Origin: a virus
IMG/VR virus record: IMGVR_UViG_3300025147_000031
Span: 1-34,700 of that record
Length of the DNA: 34,700 nucleotides
Direction: 5' to 3' (one strand)
Positions 24,309 to 34,589 of this stretch are shown here, piece after piece (position 1 is the stretch's first letter; each line of letters starts with the position of its first letter). Under the pieces are notes generated by a model. It saw only the letters and a list, made by a program, of their open reading frames with translations. It was not told the DNA's origin and did not search any database. The position numbers and the translations under genes are program-made.

Positions 24309-24459
24309 TACGCCCTGAAGCTGTAATGCTCTAGGTAATCGGTATCTGACCTGCAGAGATGGTATCGGCAAGACTGAGGACAAAGAGGAGTAATTACCTT
24401 ACAAAAACTCAGGTATAACAATACAAATAAATAAGCCCCATTACGAGGCTTATTTATTT
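24309..24459 (+). ncRNA. Structured RNA A, about 150 nt
   Basis: Bounded by a consensus promoter and a strong terminator with no real gene between. AGGTAAT (24333-24339) pairs with ATTACCT (24393-24399). Inside is CTGACCTGCAGAGATGGTA (24346-24364), which matches RNA B at 28830-28847 in 16 of 19 aligned positions. An AAGAGGAG (24383-24390) ribosome-site-like sequence sits next to the closing stem, and only a 13-codon AUU frame follows it. CTGAG (24374-24378) can pair with CTCAG near 24408. This fits a free regulatory or decoy RNA rather than a leader. Function unknown. Confidence 0.6.
24425..24459 (+). terminator. Bidirectional intrinsic terminator
   Basis: AAATAAATAAGCC (24425-24437) and GGCTTATTTATTT (24447-24459), 13 perfect pairs with a nine-base loop. 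It ends RNA A and the late unit on the + strand and the minus-strand gene at 24479 from the other side. Confidence 0.85.
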
Positions 24460-24478
24460 ACTTGGTATAACTAGTCTA

Positions 24479-24745
24479 CTATTTGATTATCACGCCACCT
24501 GTGAGCTTGTGTGAGGTCGTGGGTGCTATAAACGGTACTAGGTGCAACGCTCCGTCAATCACAAAGACCTGTTTATGAATATTAGGTTTGCTATATCTAG
24601 CTTGGATTCGTTTTAATGAATCGGCTGATAATCTATCAAGTTCTATTTTACGGTTACGTTTCGCTATTACGCCTAGGTTTAATATCGGACTGAGTGAACG
24701 CCCAACATTGTTTATGCGTCGGTCTATATCTGATAGTTGTGTCAT
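24479..24745 (-). CDS. Only minus-strand protein gene; frame extends upstream into a signal-peptide-like segment
   Basis: ATG at 24745 (minus) has AAGAGG five bases upstream and gives 88 aa (MTQLSDIDRRINNVGRSLSP...), basic and soluble. However the same frame stays open to about 24910 and the added residues read TDYLVILISGIALLSTPLLA followed by GYTKKEGSL, a convincing signal peptide or membrane anchor, then a Lys/Arg/Asn linker. No ATG, GTG or TTG lies in that part; candidates are ATT 24880, ATC 24886 or CTG 24892. So either a longer exported protein starts with a rare codon, or the start was lost and the short form remains. Family unknown. A weak minus promoter (TTGCAT/AACAAT) lies near 24974-25002. 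Confidence 0.6.
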   Translation of the reverse strand: MTQLSDIDRRINNVGRSLSPILNLGVIAKRNRKIELDRLSADSLKRIQARYSKPNIHKQVFVIDGALHLVPFIAPTTSHKLTGGVIIK

Positions 24746-25090
24746 ATAACCTCTTTTCTTATTTCTTTTGTTATTTTTAGGTACTATAAGCGACCCCTCT
24801 TTTTTTGTGTAACCGGCTAGTAGAGGAGTAGATAATAAAGCAATACCTGATATTAGGATTACTAGGTAGTCAGTTTTAATCTTGATCGTCAGTTCGCTGT
24901 GCTTTAAGCCTTAAAAGGATATTAAAAAATAGTTTACTAATTAAATTGATTAAATCAGATGTTAAAGTACGTGATTGTTTACATTCATCAGTTCAATGCA
25001 AGCTTTACGATAGCCTAAAACGTTGAGCCATTTTAGTAAGTTATTTTATAGTATCACTTACAGGCAATGGTCAGCGACTCCTCAATACTA

Positions 25091-25119
25091 TTGCGAATAT
25101 TGTTCATATGAGTTACTAT
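25091..25119 (+). promoter_or_regulatory. Promoter for a very short + strand RNA
   Basis: TTGCGA (25091-25096), 17 bases, TACTAT (25114-25119). Transcription would start near 25126 and stop at the terminator at 25170, giving only about 45 nt. The hairpin ATAGTAT/ATACTAT (25048-25054, 25085-25091) lies just before. Confidence 0.45.
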
Positions 25120-25150
25120 AGATAGTAATTCGATAAAACTACATTGATTG

Positions 25151-25170
25151 AGGCCCGAAAGGGTCTTTTT
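25151..25170 (+). terminator. Intrinsic terminator (AGGCCC GAAA GGGTCT, T-run)
   Basis: Six pairs with a GAAA loop followed by five T. No protein gene precedes it on the + strand for 850 bases, so it must end a short noncoding transcript. Confidence 0.75.
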
Positions 25171-25305
25171 CTCTGCTTGTTTATATTCCCAACCTGTTTG
25201 TTAATTTCTTTCGATAAAACTAACATTCAGTTACTGACAACTATATACCTATATTGATACGCACGTAAAGTACAAAGCATAATTACGTTGTGTATAACTT
25301 GCGAA
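25171..25305. other. AT-rich intergenic stretch without a gene
   Basis: Nothing coding on either strand. The 13-mer TTCGATAAAACTA at 25210-25222 repeats the one at 25129-25141. A weak + promoter-like pair TTGATA/CATAAT lies at 25254-25283. The AT-richness, short repeats and many hairpins around it make it a candidate replication origin, not proven. Confidence 0.3.
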
Positions 25306-25419
25306 CAAATAAAAGTAGCCCCTAAACAGTAATGTAATTGGGGCTACACACACTAAGGTGGTTATGTAAGGTGCTTACAGGCGTGTCCTAAATATCTCTA
25401 CATCGGGTGTTTCTGTACT
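25306..25419 (-). ncRNA. Putative minus-strand sRNA E
   Basis: Promoter TTGTAA (25454-25449), 17 bases, TACCAT (25431-25426) on the minus strand; the RNA contains a perfect 6-bp hairpin TGTAAG/CTTACA (25365-25379) and ends in GTAGCCCC/GGGGCTAC (25347-25315) followed by TTTTATTT. No convincing coding frame (a 15-codon AUU frame exists). About 115 nt. Confidence 0.45.
25315..25347 (-). terminator. Minus-strand terminator of sRNA E
   Basis: Eight perfect pairs, 17-base loop, and a T-rich run only on the minus-strand side, so it acts on leftward transcripts. Confidence 0.65.
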
Positions 25420-25456
25420 AATATTATGGTAATACTTATGGTTGGGTTTTACAAGA

Positions 25457-25533
25457 CAATAAAATAGAACTTAGCAGACAGTAGATTGGATTAACGATCG
25501 CCCTGGGGCAAGAGTTACTGCTAAGTTCTATAT
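25457..25533 (-). ncRNA. Putative minus-strand sRNA D, about 77 nt, closed by a 14-bp stem
   Basis: On the minus strand ATAGAACTTAGCAG pairs perfectly with CTGCTAAGTTCTAT (25531-25518 and 25477-25464) and is followed by TTTTATTG, so the closing stem doubles as terminator. Inside is a second hairpin TAAC...TGCC/GGCG...GTTA. A minus promoter with exact 17-base spacing stands directly upstream. There is no coding frame. Compact closed structure suggests a stable regulatory RNA. Confidence 0.6.
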
Positions 25534-25539
25534 ATCTAT

Positions 25540-25568
25540 ATATTACCATTTTGAGCCTATAAAATCAA
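25540..25568 (-). promoter_or_regulatory. Minus-strand promoter of sRNA D
   Basis: TTGATT (25568-25563), 17 bases, TAATAT (25545-25540). Its -35 box lies only 13 bases from the -35 of the divergent early promoter at 25582, so the two may compete. Confidence 0.6.
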
Positions 25569-25581
25569 TCACATAAAAGGC

Positions 25582-25610
25582 TTGCAATATATCAACCATT
25601 AGCGTACAAT
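25582..25610 (+). promoter_or_regulatory. Early promoter 1 with CATTAGCG spacer element
   Basis: TTGCAA, 17 bases ending CCATTAGCG, TACAAT. It stands before the Rad52-type gene. Shares the spacer element and -10 with the promoters at 32423 and 33826. Confidence 0.8.
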
Positions 25611-25645: not shown

Positions 25646-26380
25646 ATGGCACAAGTAAAAGAAATAGCAGAACAGTTATCAGAACCGTTTGATCCACAGG
25701 ATATTGAATGGCGAGTTCAACAGGCTGGTGAAGCCAATGGTAAAAAATGGGCTATGGTTTTAGCCTATATAGATAATCGAGCAATCATGGGTAGACTAGA
25801 TAAAGTATTTGGTATTGCCGGTTGGCAGAACGAATATCAACCGTTACCTGATGGCGGAATAATTTGTGGCATTAAAGCTAAAATAGGTGATGAATGGATT
25901 GTTAAATATGATGGCGCTGATAAGACTAATATTGAGGCTACTAAAGGTGGGCTTAGCAACGCTATGAAACGTGCTGGAGCGCAATGGGGTATTGGCCGTT
26001 ATCTATACGGACTTGAGGCAACATTCGTTAAGCCACAAGACGGCAAAGCACCAGACCACGATAATTACATATCTGGCTATAGTAAAGACTTTGGCAAATA
26101 TTATTTTGAACGCCCACAACTACCTAGCTGGGCATTGCCAAAAGGCGCTAAGGTAGAAGTTACTAAGACCGAGACTAACCCTGAATGGTCTTATGACGAA
26201 CGAGACAAGCAATTAAAAGAAATAACAGCCGTCGGTATCCAACTAGGTTACGACATAGCAACACTTGATAAAAGAATAGCTAAACTAAATAATAGCAATG
26301 ATGCTAAATCACTATTAACTAACTTTCGTGAGATGATGAAAGCTGAAAAATCTAAAAAAGAGGAAGTACCATTCAAATGA
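25646..26380 (+). CDS. Rad52/Rad22-type single-strand annealing protein
   Basis: 244 aa. The N-terminal 150 residues show the family pattern: IEWRVQQAG, WAMVLAYIDNRAIMGRLDKV, FGIAGWQNEYQPLPDGGIIC, then TKGGLSNAMKRAGAQWGIGR and YLYGLEA. Such rings anneal single strands and serve phage recombination and replication. The C-terminal 70 residues are a helical, lysine-rich tail. It is the first gene of the early unit and behind the strongest early promoter, with GAAAGGA as ribosome site. As no polymerase or helicase is seen, this may be the central DNA-metabolism gene of the phage. Confidence 0.88.
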   Translation: MAQVKEIAEQLSEPFDPQDIEWRVQQAGEANGKKWAMVLAYIDNRAIMGRLDKVFGIAGWQNEYQPLPDGGIICGIKAKIGDEWIVKYDGADKTNIEATKGGLSNAMKRAGAQWGIGRYLYGLEATFVKPQDGKAPDHDNYISGYSKDFGKYYFERPQLPSWALPKGAKVEVTKTETNPEWSYDERDKQLKEITAVGIQLGYDIATLDKRIAKLNNSNDAKSLLTNFREMMKAEKSKKEEVPFK

Positions 26381-28187: not shown

Positions 28188-28684
28188 AAGAGCCTAAATG
28201 CAAAATATGTGGCGGCAAACACTACAAAACATTTTGTTCACAAGCCCCTAAAACTCCCATCAAACGTACACCAATAAAACTAAAGCCTAGTAAGCCTAGA
28301 CGTAAAAAATCAGACCGAGATAAACTAAAAAAGAAGCTAGAACTGGCCGTTAAAACCTATATCAAACAGCGAGACAACTACACCTGCCAGCATTGCCATA
28401 AAAAAGTTGAAGGCTCTAACTGCCACGCCTCACATATTCTATCAGTGGGCGCACACTCTAATATGCAATTTGAACCACGTAATATGAAAGTTCTTTGTTT
28501 CCATTGTCATCGTCAATTTTGGCATGGCGATCCTGCATTATCTAGCCACTGGTACATACAGACGTTCCCAGAGAATTGGGCATATTTAATAGAGCAATCC
28601 AACACAGCATTAAAGATACCAACCTGCGAACTACAAGATAGAATTGACTATTATACCGAGCTTGTGGATAACTCTACTATCTAA
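28184..28684 (+). CDS. NinG-like HNH/zinc protein
   Basis: 166 aa, overlapping the methyltransferase by four bases (ATGA). Basic N-terminus with KCKICGGKHYKTFC, then KPRRKKSDRDKLKKKLELAV, then the core CQHCHKKVEGSNCHASHILS and MKVLCFHCHRQFWHG. These pairs match the lambda NinG layout, an HNH-like metal site that acts on branched DNA in recombination. Adjacent to the methyltransferase and close to the annealing gene, it fits the phage recombination unit. It is the last gene before RNA B. Confidence 0.85.
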   Translation: MKEPKCKICGGKHYKTFCSQAPKTPIKRTPIKLKPSKPRRKKSDRDKLKKKLELAVKTYIKQRDNYTCQHCHKKVEGSNCHASHILSVGAHSNMQFEPRNMKVLCFHCHRQFWHGDPALSSHWYIQTFPENWAYLIEQSNTALKIPTCELQDRIDYYTELVDNSTI

Positions 28685-28689
28685 TGTTA

Positions 28690-28718
28690 TTGACGAAAGC
28701 ATTAGCGTATGCTAAGAT
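28690..28718 (+). promoter_or_regulatory. Promoter before RNA B, spacer contains the GCATTAGCG element
   Basis: TTGACG (28690-28695), 17 bases, TAAGAT (28713-28718). The spacer holds AGCATTAGCGTATGCT, an imperfect palindrome which includes the same GCATTAGCGTA as at 32423 and 33826 but shifted, so the element is conserved apart from the -10 box and is likely a protein-binding site. Confidence 0.6.
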
Positions 28719-28724
28719 GTTCAC

Positions 28725-28918
28725 ATAACCACAGTAGAACTGGGTTACCGAACCAAAAGCGATGAGATGATTAGAGCCTCACACCGTACGCTACAAGGTA
28801 AATCGCACCACATTAACAATTAAGCGTAGCTGACTGGCGAGATGGTAATAACGGCTCGAGCAGTTATAAGCTATTACGAAGGGTGCAAGTGCCTTCCTCG
28901 TCAGCCACATACGCTTAA
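28725..28918 (+). ncRNA. Structured RNA B, about 190 nt
   Basis: Begins behind the promoter at 28690. First part: GGTT/AACC hairpin and a GCGAT/ATCGC-closed arm up to about 28805. Second part: TTAAGCGTA (28820-28828) pairs with TACGCTTAA (28910-28918) and GCTGAC (28829-28834) with GTCAGC (28900-28905), 15 pairs in all; inside GTAATA (28845-28850) pairs with TATTAC (28872-28877) and AAGG with CCTT. The core CTGACTGGCGAGATGGTA (28830-28847) recurs in RNA A. No gene of useful length lies here. The 21-codon gene at 28944 follows, so it could also act as a leader. Confidence 0.65.
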
Positions 28919-28943
28919 TACAAAACAAAAAGGAGAAACAAAC

Positions 28944-29009
28944 ATGAGTATTCTAGCAATCAAACGCTACGATCAACCAAATAAAATCAAGTTCATAACT
29001 ATCAAATAG
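28944..29009 (+). CDS. 21-aa small peptide after RNA B
   Basis: MSILAIKRYDQPNKIKFITI plus one Lys, with AAAAAGGAG eight bases before ATG 28944. The ribosome site is one of the strongest in the window, so the peptide is probably made. It is basic with hydrophobic ends. Its stop contains the start of the next ribosome site (TAGGAG). Confidence 0.55.
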   Translation: MSILAIKRYDQPNKIKFITIK

Positions 29010-29018
29010 GAGAACTGA

Positions 29019-29150
29019 ATGTACCGATACAACAAACTATTAAAAGACAACTGGCTGCTAATATCACTAACGATTATCGGAATAATCACATTAGTAATAT
29101 GGTTTGACAATTTCATCTGGATATTAAATCAAACAAAAGGAATAAACTAA
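29019..29150 (+). CDS. 43-aa single-membrane-segment protein
   Basis: ATG 29019 follows TAGGAG. The sequence starts MYRYNKLLKDNWLLISLTII and has one membrane segment (about residues 12-34) with basic residues before it, ending in a short polar tail. No family known. It is directly followed by another membrane-anchored gene. Confidence 0.6.
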   Translation: MYRYNKLLKDNWLLISLTIIGIITLVIWFDNFIWILNQTKGIN

Positions 29151-29388: not shown

Positions 29389-29795
29389 CACAGATTGACT
29401 TAGCCGAGCCAATCGTAACGCCACAGGCTAACCCAAAAGACGAAGTGGCAGAACAAACCGTCTTTGTACCTATCACGCCACAGAACGCAACTACGCAAGC
29501 CACAGGCGGTATAGAGGGCATAGTACGTGCAGCAGCTAACAAGTATGGTATCAGCGAGGACTATTTTGTCAGCGTAGCACGTTGCGAAAGCACCCTAAAC
29601 CCTAATAGTGTGAATTATGACTATTACGAGAACGGAAACCCTAGCGGACTATTCCAACACATTAGTGGTTACTGGTCAGCAAGAGCCGAGAAATACGGAT
29701 ATGCCGGTGCAAGCGTTCTTGATCCTGTGGCTAACGCAAACGTAACAGCAGCAATGTTCGCAGACGGACTAACTAATTTATGGGAGTGCAAGTAA
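29385..29795 (+). CDS. Lysozyme-like lytic transglycosylase domain, fused by frameshift or started at AUA
   Basis: The frame is open through the stop of the previous gene; ATA 29385 overlaps TAA by three bases, much as ATGA does elsewhere. A GTG start exists at 29445, but it lacks a good ribosome site. After a linker rich in Thr/Pro/Gln the domain reads IVRAAANKYGISEDYFVSVA, RCESTLNPNSVNY with the catalytic Glu, and GLFQHISGYW, the usual SLT/Rpf-like order, with a final NLWECK. It would cut peptidoglycan outside the membrane. No signal peptide in this frame alone, which favours the fusion with the membrane anchor before it. Early placement points to a role other than final lysis. Confidence 0.75.
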   Translation: MTQIDLAEPIVTPQANPKDEVAEQTVFVPITPQNATTQATGGIEGIVRAAANKYGISEDYFVSVARCESTLNPNSVNYDYYENGNPSGLFQHISGYWSARAEKYGYAGASVLDPVANANVTAAMFADGLTNLWECK

Positions 29796-30664: not shown

Positions 30665-31060
30665 ATGACCAAACCTAAGACTGTAGTAGATATACCAGAA
30701 ATTAAGCGTAATCCAAAACACTACTATGCTATAAGTTGTGAGCATATATGTACTGTACTATTGGATGAATACATAATGAAGAAAGCAAATAAACTCCTCT
30801 TGAAATATAGAAATGAAATGAATGGGTTACTTTCTAATAATACAGAACATTTAATAGAGCAAAATTGGGCGTTAGCATATCCGAATAAAGAACAAACATC
30901 TTTTTATAGTTCTAATCCAATAAAAGAATATCAAGTCTATACACAGCCATTTACTACTAGAAAAGTTGATAATATCTTTGAAGGAATTGGCGAATATAAA
31001 ATACACGATAGAGATGTTATAGATGTGGTTAAAAAGATTATGGAAAGTGAGCAATTATGA
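30665..31060 (+). CDS. Unrecognised 131-aa protein
   Basis: Starts two bases after the previous stop, without a clear ribosome site, hence probably coupled. AT-rich, with a lysine-rich helix (DEYIMKKANKLLLKYRNEMN) and a C-terminal helix (HDRDVIDVVKKIMESEQL). Base composition is richer in A/T than the late genes, as are the neighbours to 31060. The stop overlaps the first 15-codon mini-gene. Confidence 0.65.
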   Translation: MTKPKTVVDIPEIKRNPKHYYAISCEHICTVLLDEYIMKKANKLLLKYRNEMNGLLSNNTEHLIEQNWALAYPNKEQTSFYSSNPIKEYQVYTQPFTTRKVDNIFEGIGEYKIHDRDVIDVVKKIMESEQL

Positions 31061-31104
31061 CCTTAGTTAATACAGACGATAAGAAAGTAAGGGGTATAAA
31101 ATGA
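31057..31104 (+). CDS. 15-codon mini-gene, copy 1 (MTLVNTDDKKVRGIK)
   Basis: ATG overlaps the previous stop by four bases (ATGA), and its own TGA overlaps the next ATG (31101), so it links two genes. The sequence recurs almost unchanged at 31689, giving MTLVNTDDKK in both. Conservation at peptide level and matching couplings argue that it is translated; its role may be a leader for reinitiation at the gene behind it. Confidence 0.6.
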   Translation: MTLVNTDDKKVRGIK

Positions 31105-31685
31105 GTAAAGAATATATTAAGTTCAAACTAACAGACGAGTTCATAACATTTTGGGGCGGTAAGTTATTCCGCATTGAGGCAACCGCATCATTTGGTGATG
31201 TAGAAAAAGGCGACAAGGGCGGTTATGTAGAAAAAGCAGAAAACCTATCTAATGAGGGCGATGCTTGGGTCTCTGGCAATGCTCAGGTCTATGGCAATGC
31301 TCGGGTCTCTGGCGATGCTCAGGTCTCTGGAGATGCTCAGGTCTCTGGAGATGCTCGGGTCTCTGGAGATGCTCAGGTCTCTGGAGATGCTCGGGTCTCT
31401 GGCAATGCTTGGGTCTATGGCAATGCTCAGGTCTATGGCAATGCTTGGGTCTATGGCGATGCTCGGGTCTCTGCAAAGAAAGCATTTAATAAAGGTTGGT
31501 TCATCGGCGGTGATGATACAGAAAAGATTACCAGAATTGAAGACCAAATGGGTAATGATTACTGGAAAACACAATATGTATTGGGTGACTACGAGATTAA
31601 CGATATTGAACCAGCAGAAGAAAAAGCTACCCACCCTAAAGAAATTGTGATTGACGGTGCAACTTATATTCTGAAGGATAAATAA
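31101..31685 (+). CDS. Hexapeptide-repeat left-handed beta-helix protein
   Basis: 194 aa. Residues 53-124 hold twelve six-residue turns of the form G(D/N)A(Q/R/W)V(S/Y), a left-handed parallel beta-helix. N-terminal 50 residues (KEYIKFKLTDEFITFWGGKL, then RIEATASFGDVEKGDKGGYV) match a fold common to phage proteins of this type; the C-terminal 70 residues are mixed alpha/beta with a final IVIDGATYILKDK. No acetyltransferase residues are visible. Flanked on both sides by the 15-codon mini-genes. Possible roles include a DNA mimic or scaffold for other proteins, but none can be shown here. Confidence 0.85.
   Translation: MSKEYIKFKLTDEFITFWGGKLFRIEATASFGDVEKGDKGGYVEKAENLSNEGDAWVSGNAQVYGNARVSGDAQVSGDAQVSGDARVSGDAQVSGDARVSGNAWVYGNAQVYGNAWVYGDARVSAKKAFNKGWFIGGDDTEKITRIEDQMGNDYWKTQYVLGDYEINDIEPAEEKATHPKEIVIDGATYILKDK
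31257..31472 (+). repeat. Twelve 18-base tandem repeats coding the beta-helix
   Basis: Period 18 bases (core GGTCTCTGGAGATGCT with variation), in frame with the gene. High DNA-level identity suggests recent gain or loss of turns by slippage. The repeats also open long chance frames on both strands, which are not genes. Confidence 0.9.
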
Positions 31686-31688
31686 GTT

Positions 31689-31736
31689 ATGACCTTAGTC
31701 AATACAGACGATAAGAAAGAAAGGAATATGAAGTAA
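31689..31736 (+). CDS. 15-codon mini-gene, copy 2 (MTLVNTDDKKERNMK)
   Basis: Identical to copy 1 at 10 of its first 10 residues. Starts three bases after the hexapeptide gene and its TAA overlaps the next ATG (TAATG, 31736). The DNA repeat runs from two bases before the ATG to the AAGG that serves as ribosome site for the next gene. Confidence 0.6.
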   Translation: MTLVNTDDKKERNMK

Positions 31737-32032
31737 TGAGCAAATCAACAGTTATATATGAACGAGTATGGTATTTGCCGACATCACTTGTCGCAAAAGA
31801 TGGAAGCGTTACGTTGATAGGGCATATATTCAAGATAAAAAGAACCGACACAGGCAACATCCTTTTAGATAACAAAACCAATGCGTGGGATTTTCCTAAC
31901 GATGGTGAGATGGTAAGTTTCATCAGAAAGAATAAGGCGTGTGCGTTGCCCTACGAAGCTGAGGGAAACCCAAGGTTCATTCCCACCAGAATACGAAACA
32001 TGGTTAAAAAGTTTAAGGTAGAGGATAAGTGA
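31736..32032 (+). CDS. Unrecognised 98-aa protein
   Basis: Coupled to mini-gene copy 2 by one-base overlap. Starts MSKSTVIYERVWYLPTSLVA; both this and the hexapeptide gene start MSK and both lie behind a mini-gene. Beta-rich, basic at the C-terminus (RFIPTRIRNMVKKFKVEDK). No family seen. Confidence 0.65.
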   Translation: MSKSTVIYERVWYLPTSLVAKDGSVTLIGHIFKIKRTDTGNILLDNKTNAWDFPNDGEMVSFIRKNKACALPYEAEGNPRFIPTRIRNMVKKFKVEDK

Positions 32033-32422: not shown

Positions 32423-32451
32423 TTGCATATACTCAAGCATTAGCGTACAAT
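32423..32451 (+). promoter_or_regulatory. Early promoter 2 with GCATTAGCG spacer element
   Basis: TTGCAT, 17 bases ending AAGCATTAGCG, TACAAT. Same as the promoter at 33826 in both boxes and the last 10 bases of the spacer. Confidence 0.85.
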
Positions 32452-32484: not shown

Positions 32485-32724
32485 ATGAGTAGCACAATAC
32501 AGGTTTATACAAACGACGTAGTTATAGAGGAAGTAACAGGTCAACGCTTATTCGGAACAGTTGACGATGTACAAGTAACTATTAAAGACGTAGACGCTTC
32601 CGACATCGTACCTGAGTTTATAGTTAGTGAACTATTAGACGCAATCGACTTTGCCGACATCGAGAAGTATTACCTTGCTCGCAAAGGTGATAGTGATGAC
32701 GAAGATTTCAGTGGGGCTGAGTAA
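32485..32724 (+). CDS. Unrecognised 79-aa acidic protein
   Basis: AAAGGA ribosome site, first gene after early promoter 2. Beta-like N-terminus (STIQVYTNDVVIEEVTGQRL) and a strongly acidic C-terminus (ARKGDSDDEDFSGAE). Such small acidic early proteins often bind host factors or mimic DNA, but this is a guess from composition. One-base overlap with the next gene. Confidence 0.65.
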   Translation: MSSTIQVYTNDVVIEEVTGQRLFGTVDDVQVTIKDVDASDIVPEFIVSELLDAIDFADIEKYYLARKGDSDDEDFSGAE

Positions 32725-32984
32725 TGAGCCAGGCAACGGAACTACTAAAAGAGTTCAAAAGGCGTGGCCAGATATTCAACTACGAACTTGCAACCGATTA
32801 TCATTTGCTACAGTACGTTGGTAGAATCTACGAATTACGCCACACATACGGTGAAACGATTGAGTGTCTACCAGACCCCGATGGCCGCAAAGGTGTGAAC
32901 TTATACGTTTATCACCCTAAACAGCCTACACAGGCCACCCTAATAGCCGTAGAGCCACTAAAACAAGAAAGGCGATATGAATAA
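32724..32984 (+). CDS. Unrecognised 86-aa protein
   Basis: Coupled by one-base overlap. Starts MSQATELLKEFKRRGQIFNY; the middle (YHLLQYVGRIYELRHTYGET) and the end (NLYVYHPKQPTQATLIAVEP) look like a small winged-helix-like protein: helices then a beta wing with RGQIFNYELA...GRIYELR, the pattern of helix-turn-helix proteins used by some phages. Possible DNA-binding regulator, moderate support only. Confidence 0.65.
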   Translation: MSQATELLKEFKRRGQIFNYELATDYHLLQYVGRIYELRHTYGETIECLPDPDGRKGVNLYVYHPKQPTQATLIAVEPLKQERRYE

Positions 32985-33825: not shown

Positions 33826-33854
33826 TTGCATATTCCTAAGCATTAGCGTACAAT
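33826..33854 (+). promoter_or_regulatory. Early promoter 3 with GCATTAGCG spacer element
   Basis: TTGCAT, 17 bases ending AAGCATTAGCG, TACAAT; its -35 follows directly after the closing stem of RNA C. Drives the two exported proteins behind it. Confidence 0.85.
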
Positions 33855-34082: not shown

Positions 34083-34589
34083 ATGAAACAAATCACTCAC
34101 AAAATTATAACCATCACATTAGTAATTATCATTGCTATATTAGTTGGTTATATTTTAACTCCGACTAAAACGATAGCCCCAGCACAGCGTATAGACAGCA
34201 TTAGTATAAATGCCGATGAACAAACCGTCTTAGAACTTGGAAACGATTACAGGGCTTCTAAACAGCTTACAAAGCTATCTATCAACAGTCAACTAATGAA
34301 ATCAGCCCAAGCAAAAGCCGATGACCTATGTAAATCCGGCAACTGGTCGCACACAGACAGCCAAGGCCGAGAGTTCTATAGTTTTATACAGGCAACTGGT
34401 TATAAATATGAACACGCTGGCGAAAATCTAGCCAAAGGTTACGCTACCCAAGAACTAGCTTTTAAGGCTCTAATAAATAGCCCAACTCACCTGGAGAATA
34501 TCGTCGGTGATTATAAAGAAATCGGTATCGGTATTAGCGATTGTAACGGCCAAAACTACTTAGTAGCGCATTACGGCATTCAAAAATAG
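34083..34589 (+). CDS. Membrane-anchored/exported CAP (SCP/PR1-like) domain protein
   Basis: 168 aa. Residues 6-27 are a signal anchor (HKIITITLVIIIAILVGYIL). Residues 50-166 form a CAP domain: LGNDYRASKQLTKLSINSQL, GNWSHTDSQGREF with the metal-binding His, YKYEHAGENLAKGY with the family HAGENLA signature, and SPTHLENIVGDYKEIGIGI with the second His. CAP proteins act outside cells, but their biochemical role in bacteria is unclear. A CAP domain in a phage early unit is unusual and points to remodelling of the host envelope or exclusion of other phages. Confidence 0.85.
   Translation: MKQITHKIITITLVIIIAILVGYILTPTKTIAPAQRIDSISINADEQTVLELGNDYRASKQLTKLSINSQLMKSAQAKADDLCKSGNWSHTDSQGREFYSFIQATGYKYEHAGENLAKGYATQELAFKALINSPTHLENIVGDYKEIGIGISDCNGQNYLVAHYGIQK

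Follow-up and report, generated by a model that had tools for sequence, protein, structure and literature searches.

The lambda OOP RNA is a 77-nt, intrinsically terminated transcript made near the origin and directed opposite to the early genes. The lambda 6S late leader RNA (pR'-tR') is a short RNA set between its promoter and a terminator in front of another unit, and transcription is stopped at this terminator until an antiterminator acts. OOP RNA is antisense to cII and small RNAs of phages are a known kind, as reviewed (PMC12197685). The Ceduovirus phages c2, bIL67 and 923 carry a noncoding region between the early and late modules that supports plasmid replication without phage proteins, and the sequence of this origin region varies between groups with its position kept (PMC7150918).

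The sequence analysed here was the uncultured-phage record IMGVR_UViG_3300025147_000031 (34,700 nt), the full stretch of which is referred to as the window. A noncoding control region between its late and early units is predicted to encode at least two short intrinsically terminated RNAs (D and E), and probably three. A second contig of 5,555 bases bridged the end of the window to its start via 77 extra bases, giving a closed phage genome of approximately 34,777 bases of which the window is short by those 77 bases only. The late side (1,002 to approximately 23,200) included terminase, portal, capsid, tape-measure and holin genes, and the early unit opened at 25,646 with an Erf/Sak-type annealing protein, after which came genes for a 129-aa protein, a DNA methyltransferase and an HNH/NinG-like protein. 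The scanned proteins of the window included none recognised as an integrase, repressor, initiator, helicase, primase or polymerase, which is a weak negative since several early proteins had no match. A YdcK-type beta-solenoid gene containing tandem repeats of about 54 bp (31257-31473) was bordered on both sides by a repeat of about 57 bp (31055-31109 and 31687-31744).

Promoter-terminator pairs between the late and early units

The original prediction described a cluster of short RNAs on both strands in about 690 bases lacking a protein gene (24893-25581), and a convincing protein gene was indeed absent from this stretch and onward to 25645. The features of the region and its borders were as follows.

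24424-24460, no strand assigned: bidirectional terminator between the late operon (plus strand) and the leftward frame (minus strand), from terminator and folding scans
24479-24910, minus strand: leftward open frame, open to 24910, with an ATG at 24745 and a CTG as possible start at 24892
25091-25119, plus strand: promoter of the plus RNA, TTGCGA-17-TACTAT, from promoter and pair scans
25126-25172, plus strand: predicted plus-strand RNA of about 45-50 nt with its terminator at 25150-25167, from promoter, terminator and folding scans
25306-25419, minus strand: predicted RNA E of about 105-114 nt, from terminator score, folding and pair scan
25426-25454, minus strand: promoter of RNA E, TTGTAA-17-TACCAT, from promoter and pair scans
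25457-25533, minus strand: predicted RNA D of about 77 nt, from folding and pair scan
25540-25568, minus strand: promoter of RNA D, TTGATT-17-TAATAT, the top minus-strand promoter score in 24.3-25.65 kb
25582-25610, plus strand: main early promoter, TTGCAA-17-TACAAT, from promoter scan, repeat copies and spacer element

A pair scan, in which a hairpin (at least 6 closing pairs) had to be followed by a T-rich tail and preceded at 25-140 bases by a sigma-70-like promoter, returned exactly the three pairs described before (plus RNA, E and D), at the same places, and nothing else in the region. The spacers, which had been called exactly 17 bases, were 17 bases in all three pairs, although this was partly a product of the choice of boxes in the original prediction. 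The promoter of D was back to back with the main early promoter, as had been proposed, the two -35 boxes being 13 bp apart. The terminator of the plus RNA (25150-25167) was GAGGCCC-GAAA-GGGTCTT followed by TTTCTCT, and that of E (25347-25315, minus strand) had the arms GTAGCCCC/GGGGCTAC followed by TTTTATTT. In D, a perfect 14-bp 5'-proximal closing stem (25518-25531/25464-25477) was combined with an inner hairpin and, on the 3' side, a bulge of 14 nt, and the closing-stem arms were followed by the U-rich tail TTTATTGTCTT. At the sequence level, D, E and the plus RNA each had their own promoter and intrinsic terminator and coded no protein. A 13-bp repeat, TTCGATAAAACTA, was located at 25129 and 25210 with no further exact copies. 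The leftward frame (24479-24910, minus strand) had a signal-anchor-like N-terminus readable from the CTG at 24892, no database match or homologue and no ATG, GTG or TTG start before 24745.

Shuffles of the same 689 bases gave mean pair counts of 0.31, 0.20 and 0.13 at three thresholds and none of 300 reached three pairs, although the cut-offs were chosen after the promoter scores were known and the exact odds are not to be relied on. Under the same rule, an upstream promoter was present at 18 of the 90 terminator-like sites in the real genome (20%), and compared with this rate the region, where three of the four terminators had a promoter, was only modestly unusual (binomial p ~0.03, calculated by hand). 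The folding energy of D was -26.7 kcal/mol against -10.6 in shuffles (z = -6.1). Across the 3,462 windows of a folding scan, z was below -5 at two genome loci only, the D hairpin (25464-25531, minus strand) and the late terminator at 24424-24460. The E terminator had the best combined score across the half of the genome that was scanned (16-34.7 kb), while E and the plus RNA folded only slightly better than shuffles (z of -1.9 and -1.8). The promoters of the three RNAs were weak to average and ordinary genome-wide; the strength of the local case is in the hairpins. None of the Rfam 15 covariance models matched the window at the gathering cut-off. A second cluster of promoter-terminator pairs was seen around short early-region intergenic stretches at 28.6-29.1 kb (28600-29150), adjoining the promoter at 28690 and a TTATCCACA site at 28663-28671.

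Early-promoter element and similarly arranged regions in other phages

The early promoter was a repeated one (TTGCAA/TTGCAT, 7 bases, ACCATTAGCG or AGCATTAGCG, TACAAT) located at 25,582, 32,423 and 33,826, with a variant early promoter at 28,690 and another in the 77 bases that close the genome between 34700 and 1 (spans 25582-25610, 28690-28718, 32423-32451 and 33826-33854). It carried the element TTGNNN-N7-AGCATWAGCR-TACAAT, the core of which (AGCATWAGC) had four exact copies in the closed genome, all within promoter-like spacers; the spacer of the 25582 promoter held ACCATTAGC (25595-25603), with one mismatch to the core. A search for the element identified three further contigs where it lay upstream of genes, namely the uncultured phage contigs L112 (3300011116_000398), L138 (3300022179_001485) and L139 (3300032309_001977) of IMG/VR. 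Other matches were inside long open frames and look like chance, and a mis-spaced promoter pattern gave 17 matches, a figure that serves as a rough gauge of chance matches only. The five matches in genome contigs were apparently within coding frames and the element therefore gave no pointer to a sequenced host. The presence of an operator-like AGCATWAGC in the -35/-10 spacer of both the window early promoters and the promoters of the three contigs suggests a DNA-binding regulator, coded by phage or host. A weak winged-helix match was located at 32,724-32,984. The earlier proposal that the RNAs form a control centre in place of a repressor was not supported, because the early promoters share this operator-like site.

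Three early proteins of the window had distant homologues in L112, arranged in the window order: the 129-aa protein (E 1e-14), the DNA methyltransferase (E 9e-17) and the HNH/NinG protein (E 4e-6). Gene order was compared for L112, and the sequences indicate that the two early units are related. The tetranucleotide profile of L112 was also the nearest to the window among the compared loci (r 0.65), and given this and the ordered early homologues the two phages probably have similar hosts. Early-side genes of the window at 34083-34589 and 29445-29795 encoded a CAP/SCP-domain protein and an SLT transglycosylase, and a transglycosylase was likewise included in the L112 early unit.

The early and late units of L112, L138 and L139 diverge, with a noncoding region between them. 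RNA1 was a 50-nt hairpin RNA pointing away from the early promoter, its -10 box back to back with that promoter and with no promoter above the scan cut-off. Its fold combined an inner hairpin and a 3'-side bulge with a 5'-proximal closing stem; the loop was perfectly conserved, and there was one double compensatory change, which is not significant alone. RNA2 was located as follows.

L112:7968-8094, L138:869-994 and L139:2063-2188, pointing away from the early promoter: RNA2, a 126-nt structured RNA

RNA2 had a consensus promoter (TTGACA-18-TATAAT) and a T7 terminator. All of its 39 pairs (100%) were kept paired; seven showed double compensatory changes and one pair was co-inserted, a result reached by none of 500 shuffles; with three sequences of which two are close, the seven changes represent one comparison, L112 against L138 and L139. 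The covariation spanned the whole length of RNA2, beyond the terminator stem. Rfam covariance models run against the three contigs matched only a tRNA elsewhere in L112, and RNA2 was without a match. RNA3 was an RNA of about 50 nt on the opposing strand with a T7 terminator, present in L112 and L139 and absent from L138. Its TTGACA-17-TATAAT boxes were kept with a diverged spacer, and in L112 it crossed the leader of the first rightward gene. Two extra strong plus-strand terminators were located between RNA1 and RNA2 in L112 only (L112:7637-7762).

Moving outward from the early promoter of the window, D (back to back and pointing away), E (pointing away) and the plus RNA (short and opposing) were matched in order and direction by RNA1, RNA2 and RNA3 of L112 and L139. 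D and RNA1 were also alike in topology, from the 5'-proximal closing stem and inner hairpin to the bulge on the 3' side; homology of D and RNA1 was considered and dropped, the topology being alike and sequence support absent. Models of RNA1 and RNA2 identified no homologue in the window, where the best match (E 0.29) fell in a coding region. Neither blastn against the phage collection nor a comparison with loci fetched via the annealing protein, terminase or methyltransferase yielded a relative of the noncoding region, and no other copy of the D stem pattern was present in the viral contig collection; two near-identical contigs (G001 and G002) end short of covering the region. A literature search for the same layout returned nothing direct. 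The parallel was spotted after both layouts had been seen, and three units would agree in orientation by chance in 1 of 8 cases, so that it lends support to the short RNAs and is not proof of them.

Short RNAs are probable here because distant phages carry an equally arranged set, one member of which has its fold kept by paired mutations. Together with the local statistics this favours the short RNAs on both strands that had been predicted: the existence of D and E is, on balance, likely, and the plus RNA is probably a real short RNA as well.

Possible roles of the RNAs and other explanations

Transcription in this phage, its timing and every functional step are what we infer from the sequence. 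The promoters of D and E, which face away from the main early promoter, would be used by host RNA polymerase, and both RNAs would thus be made together with the early genes. D would form a stable hairpin in which the 5' end of the RNA pairs with the terminator arm. D and E overlap no gene and would most likely be trans-acting regulators that work by binding proteins or by base-pairing. The plus RNA opposes D and E and overlaps only the hypothetical leftward leader; any transcript running leftward to the frame at 24910-24479 (possible starts at 24892/24745) would be complementary to it. The plus RNA may act as an antisense RNA on that leader, which is the simplest reading because it crosses the leftward path to 24,910-24,479 as RNA3 crosses the L112 leader. 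Predicted base-pairing of D, E and the plus RNA with phage translation starts was no better than that of shuffled RNAs. The roles proposed for the three RNAs are tentative.

A possible explanation, compatible with the one above, is that the region is a replication origin whose short transcripts would serve initiation through priming, R-loop formation or strand opening. As in Ceduovirus, the region is a noncoding stretch with early-unit promoters at this genome position (PMC7150918), and the scanned proteins of a genome 77 bp short of closed included none recognised as an initiator, helicase, primase or polymerase. Within the region, A+T reached 80% at 24900-24949 and a DnaA-box-like TTATACACA was located at 25289-25297. 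This site was single, however, DnaA boxes occurred at chance frequency in the genome, and the iterons or clustered DnaA boxes of a DnaA- or initiator-type origin were not found in the region. The GC-skew check suggested for an origin was run and gave no support, with no significant switch and the best position elsewhere. The promoters flanking the Ceduovirus origin are early promoters, whereas D and E run the opposite way.

It is unlikely that only the terminators are real, acting as insulators of transcription in both directions between the late and early units, with the promoter-like sites arising by chance in A+T-rich DNA. The ordinary promoter scores would agree with this, as would the 20% of terminator-like sites in the genome that have an upstream promoter, but the proportion here was three out of four, the D promoter sets the start directly at the 5' arm, and RNA2 in L112, L138 and L139 combines a consensus promoter with full-length covariation. 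Rather improbable is the explanation that D and E are attenuated leaders acting in cis, where leftward transcription toward 24910-24479 would be halted at each terminator until an antiterminator acts, in the manner of lambda pR'-tR'. The D and E terminators do stand in tandem upstream of the leftward frame, and RNA1 and RNA2 are upstream of late genes and in the same direction in the three contigs. The leftward frame, however, lacks homologues and a usual start codon before 24745 and differs in direction from the window late genes, and no antiterminator was recognised.

Comparison with known systems

The catalogue of structured small RNAs from lytic phages is poor, and coordinates are given here for at least one covarying RNA family with no Rfam match (RNA2). 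RNA2 would be a new family, and D and E would possibly be new families. The layout can be used to seek such RNAs beside early promoters after sequence similarity is gone, and if the region is also an origin it would add to the candidates for phage replication that lacks a recognisable initiator.

D resembles the lambda OOP RNA in being short, intrinsically terminated and directed against the early direction, whereas OOP is antisense to cII and D overlaps no gene. The order of promoter, RNA and terminator in the lambda 6S late leader fits RNA2 of L112 better than the window, where D and E are not directed at the late genes and no Q-like protein was recognised. Rfam scans of the window and of L112, L138 and L139 gave no match to any OOP-type family. 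Compared with the Ceduovirus origin, the directions of the short transcripts differ, and origin function was shown there by plasmid replication whereas the window was read at the level of sequence; the window too has early-region promoters in a noncoding stretch that separates the early from the late modules.

The regions of L112, L138 and L139 differ from that of the window in that their RNAs have no sequence similarity to D, E or the plus RNA, their late genes are divergent where those of the window are in tandem, L138 is without RNA3 and L112 has extra terminators. They share with it the early-promoter element, distant early genes in order (L112) and two RNAs pointing away with one opposing, and this kept layout is the unusual part of the finding. 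Phages sharing the element could conceivably have a control region of fixed layout and free sequence, in which a set of RNAs of unrecognised families and the shared operator would run the early switch or start replication.
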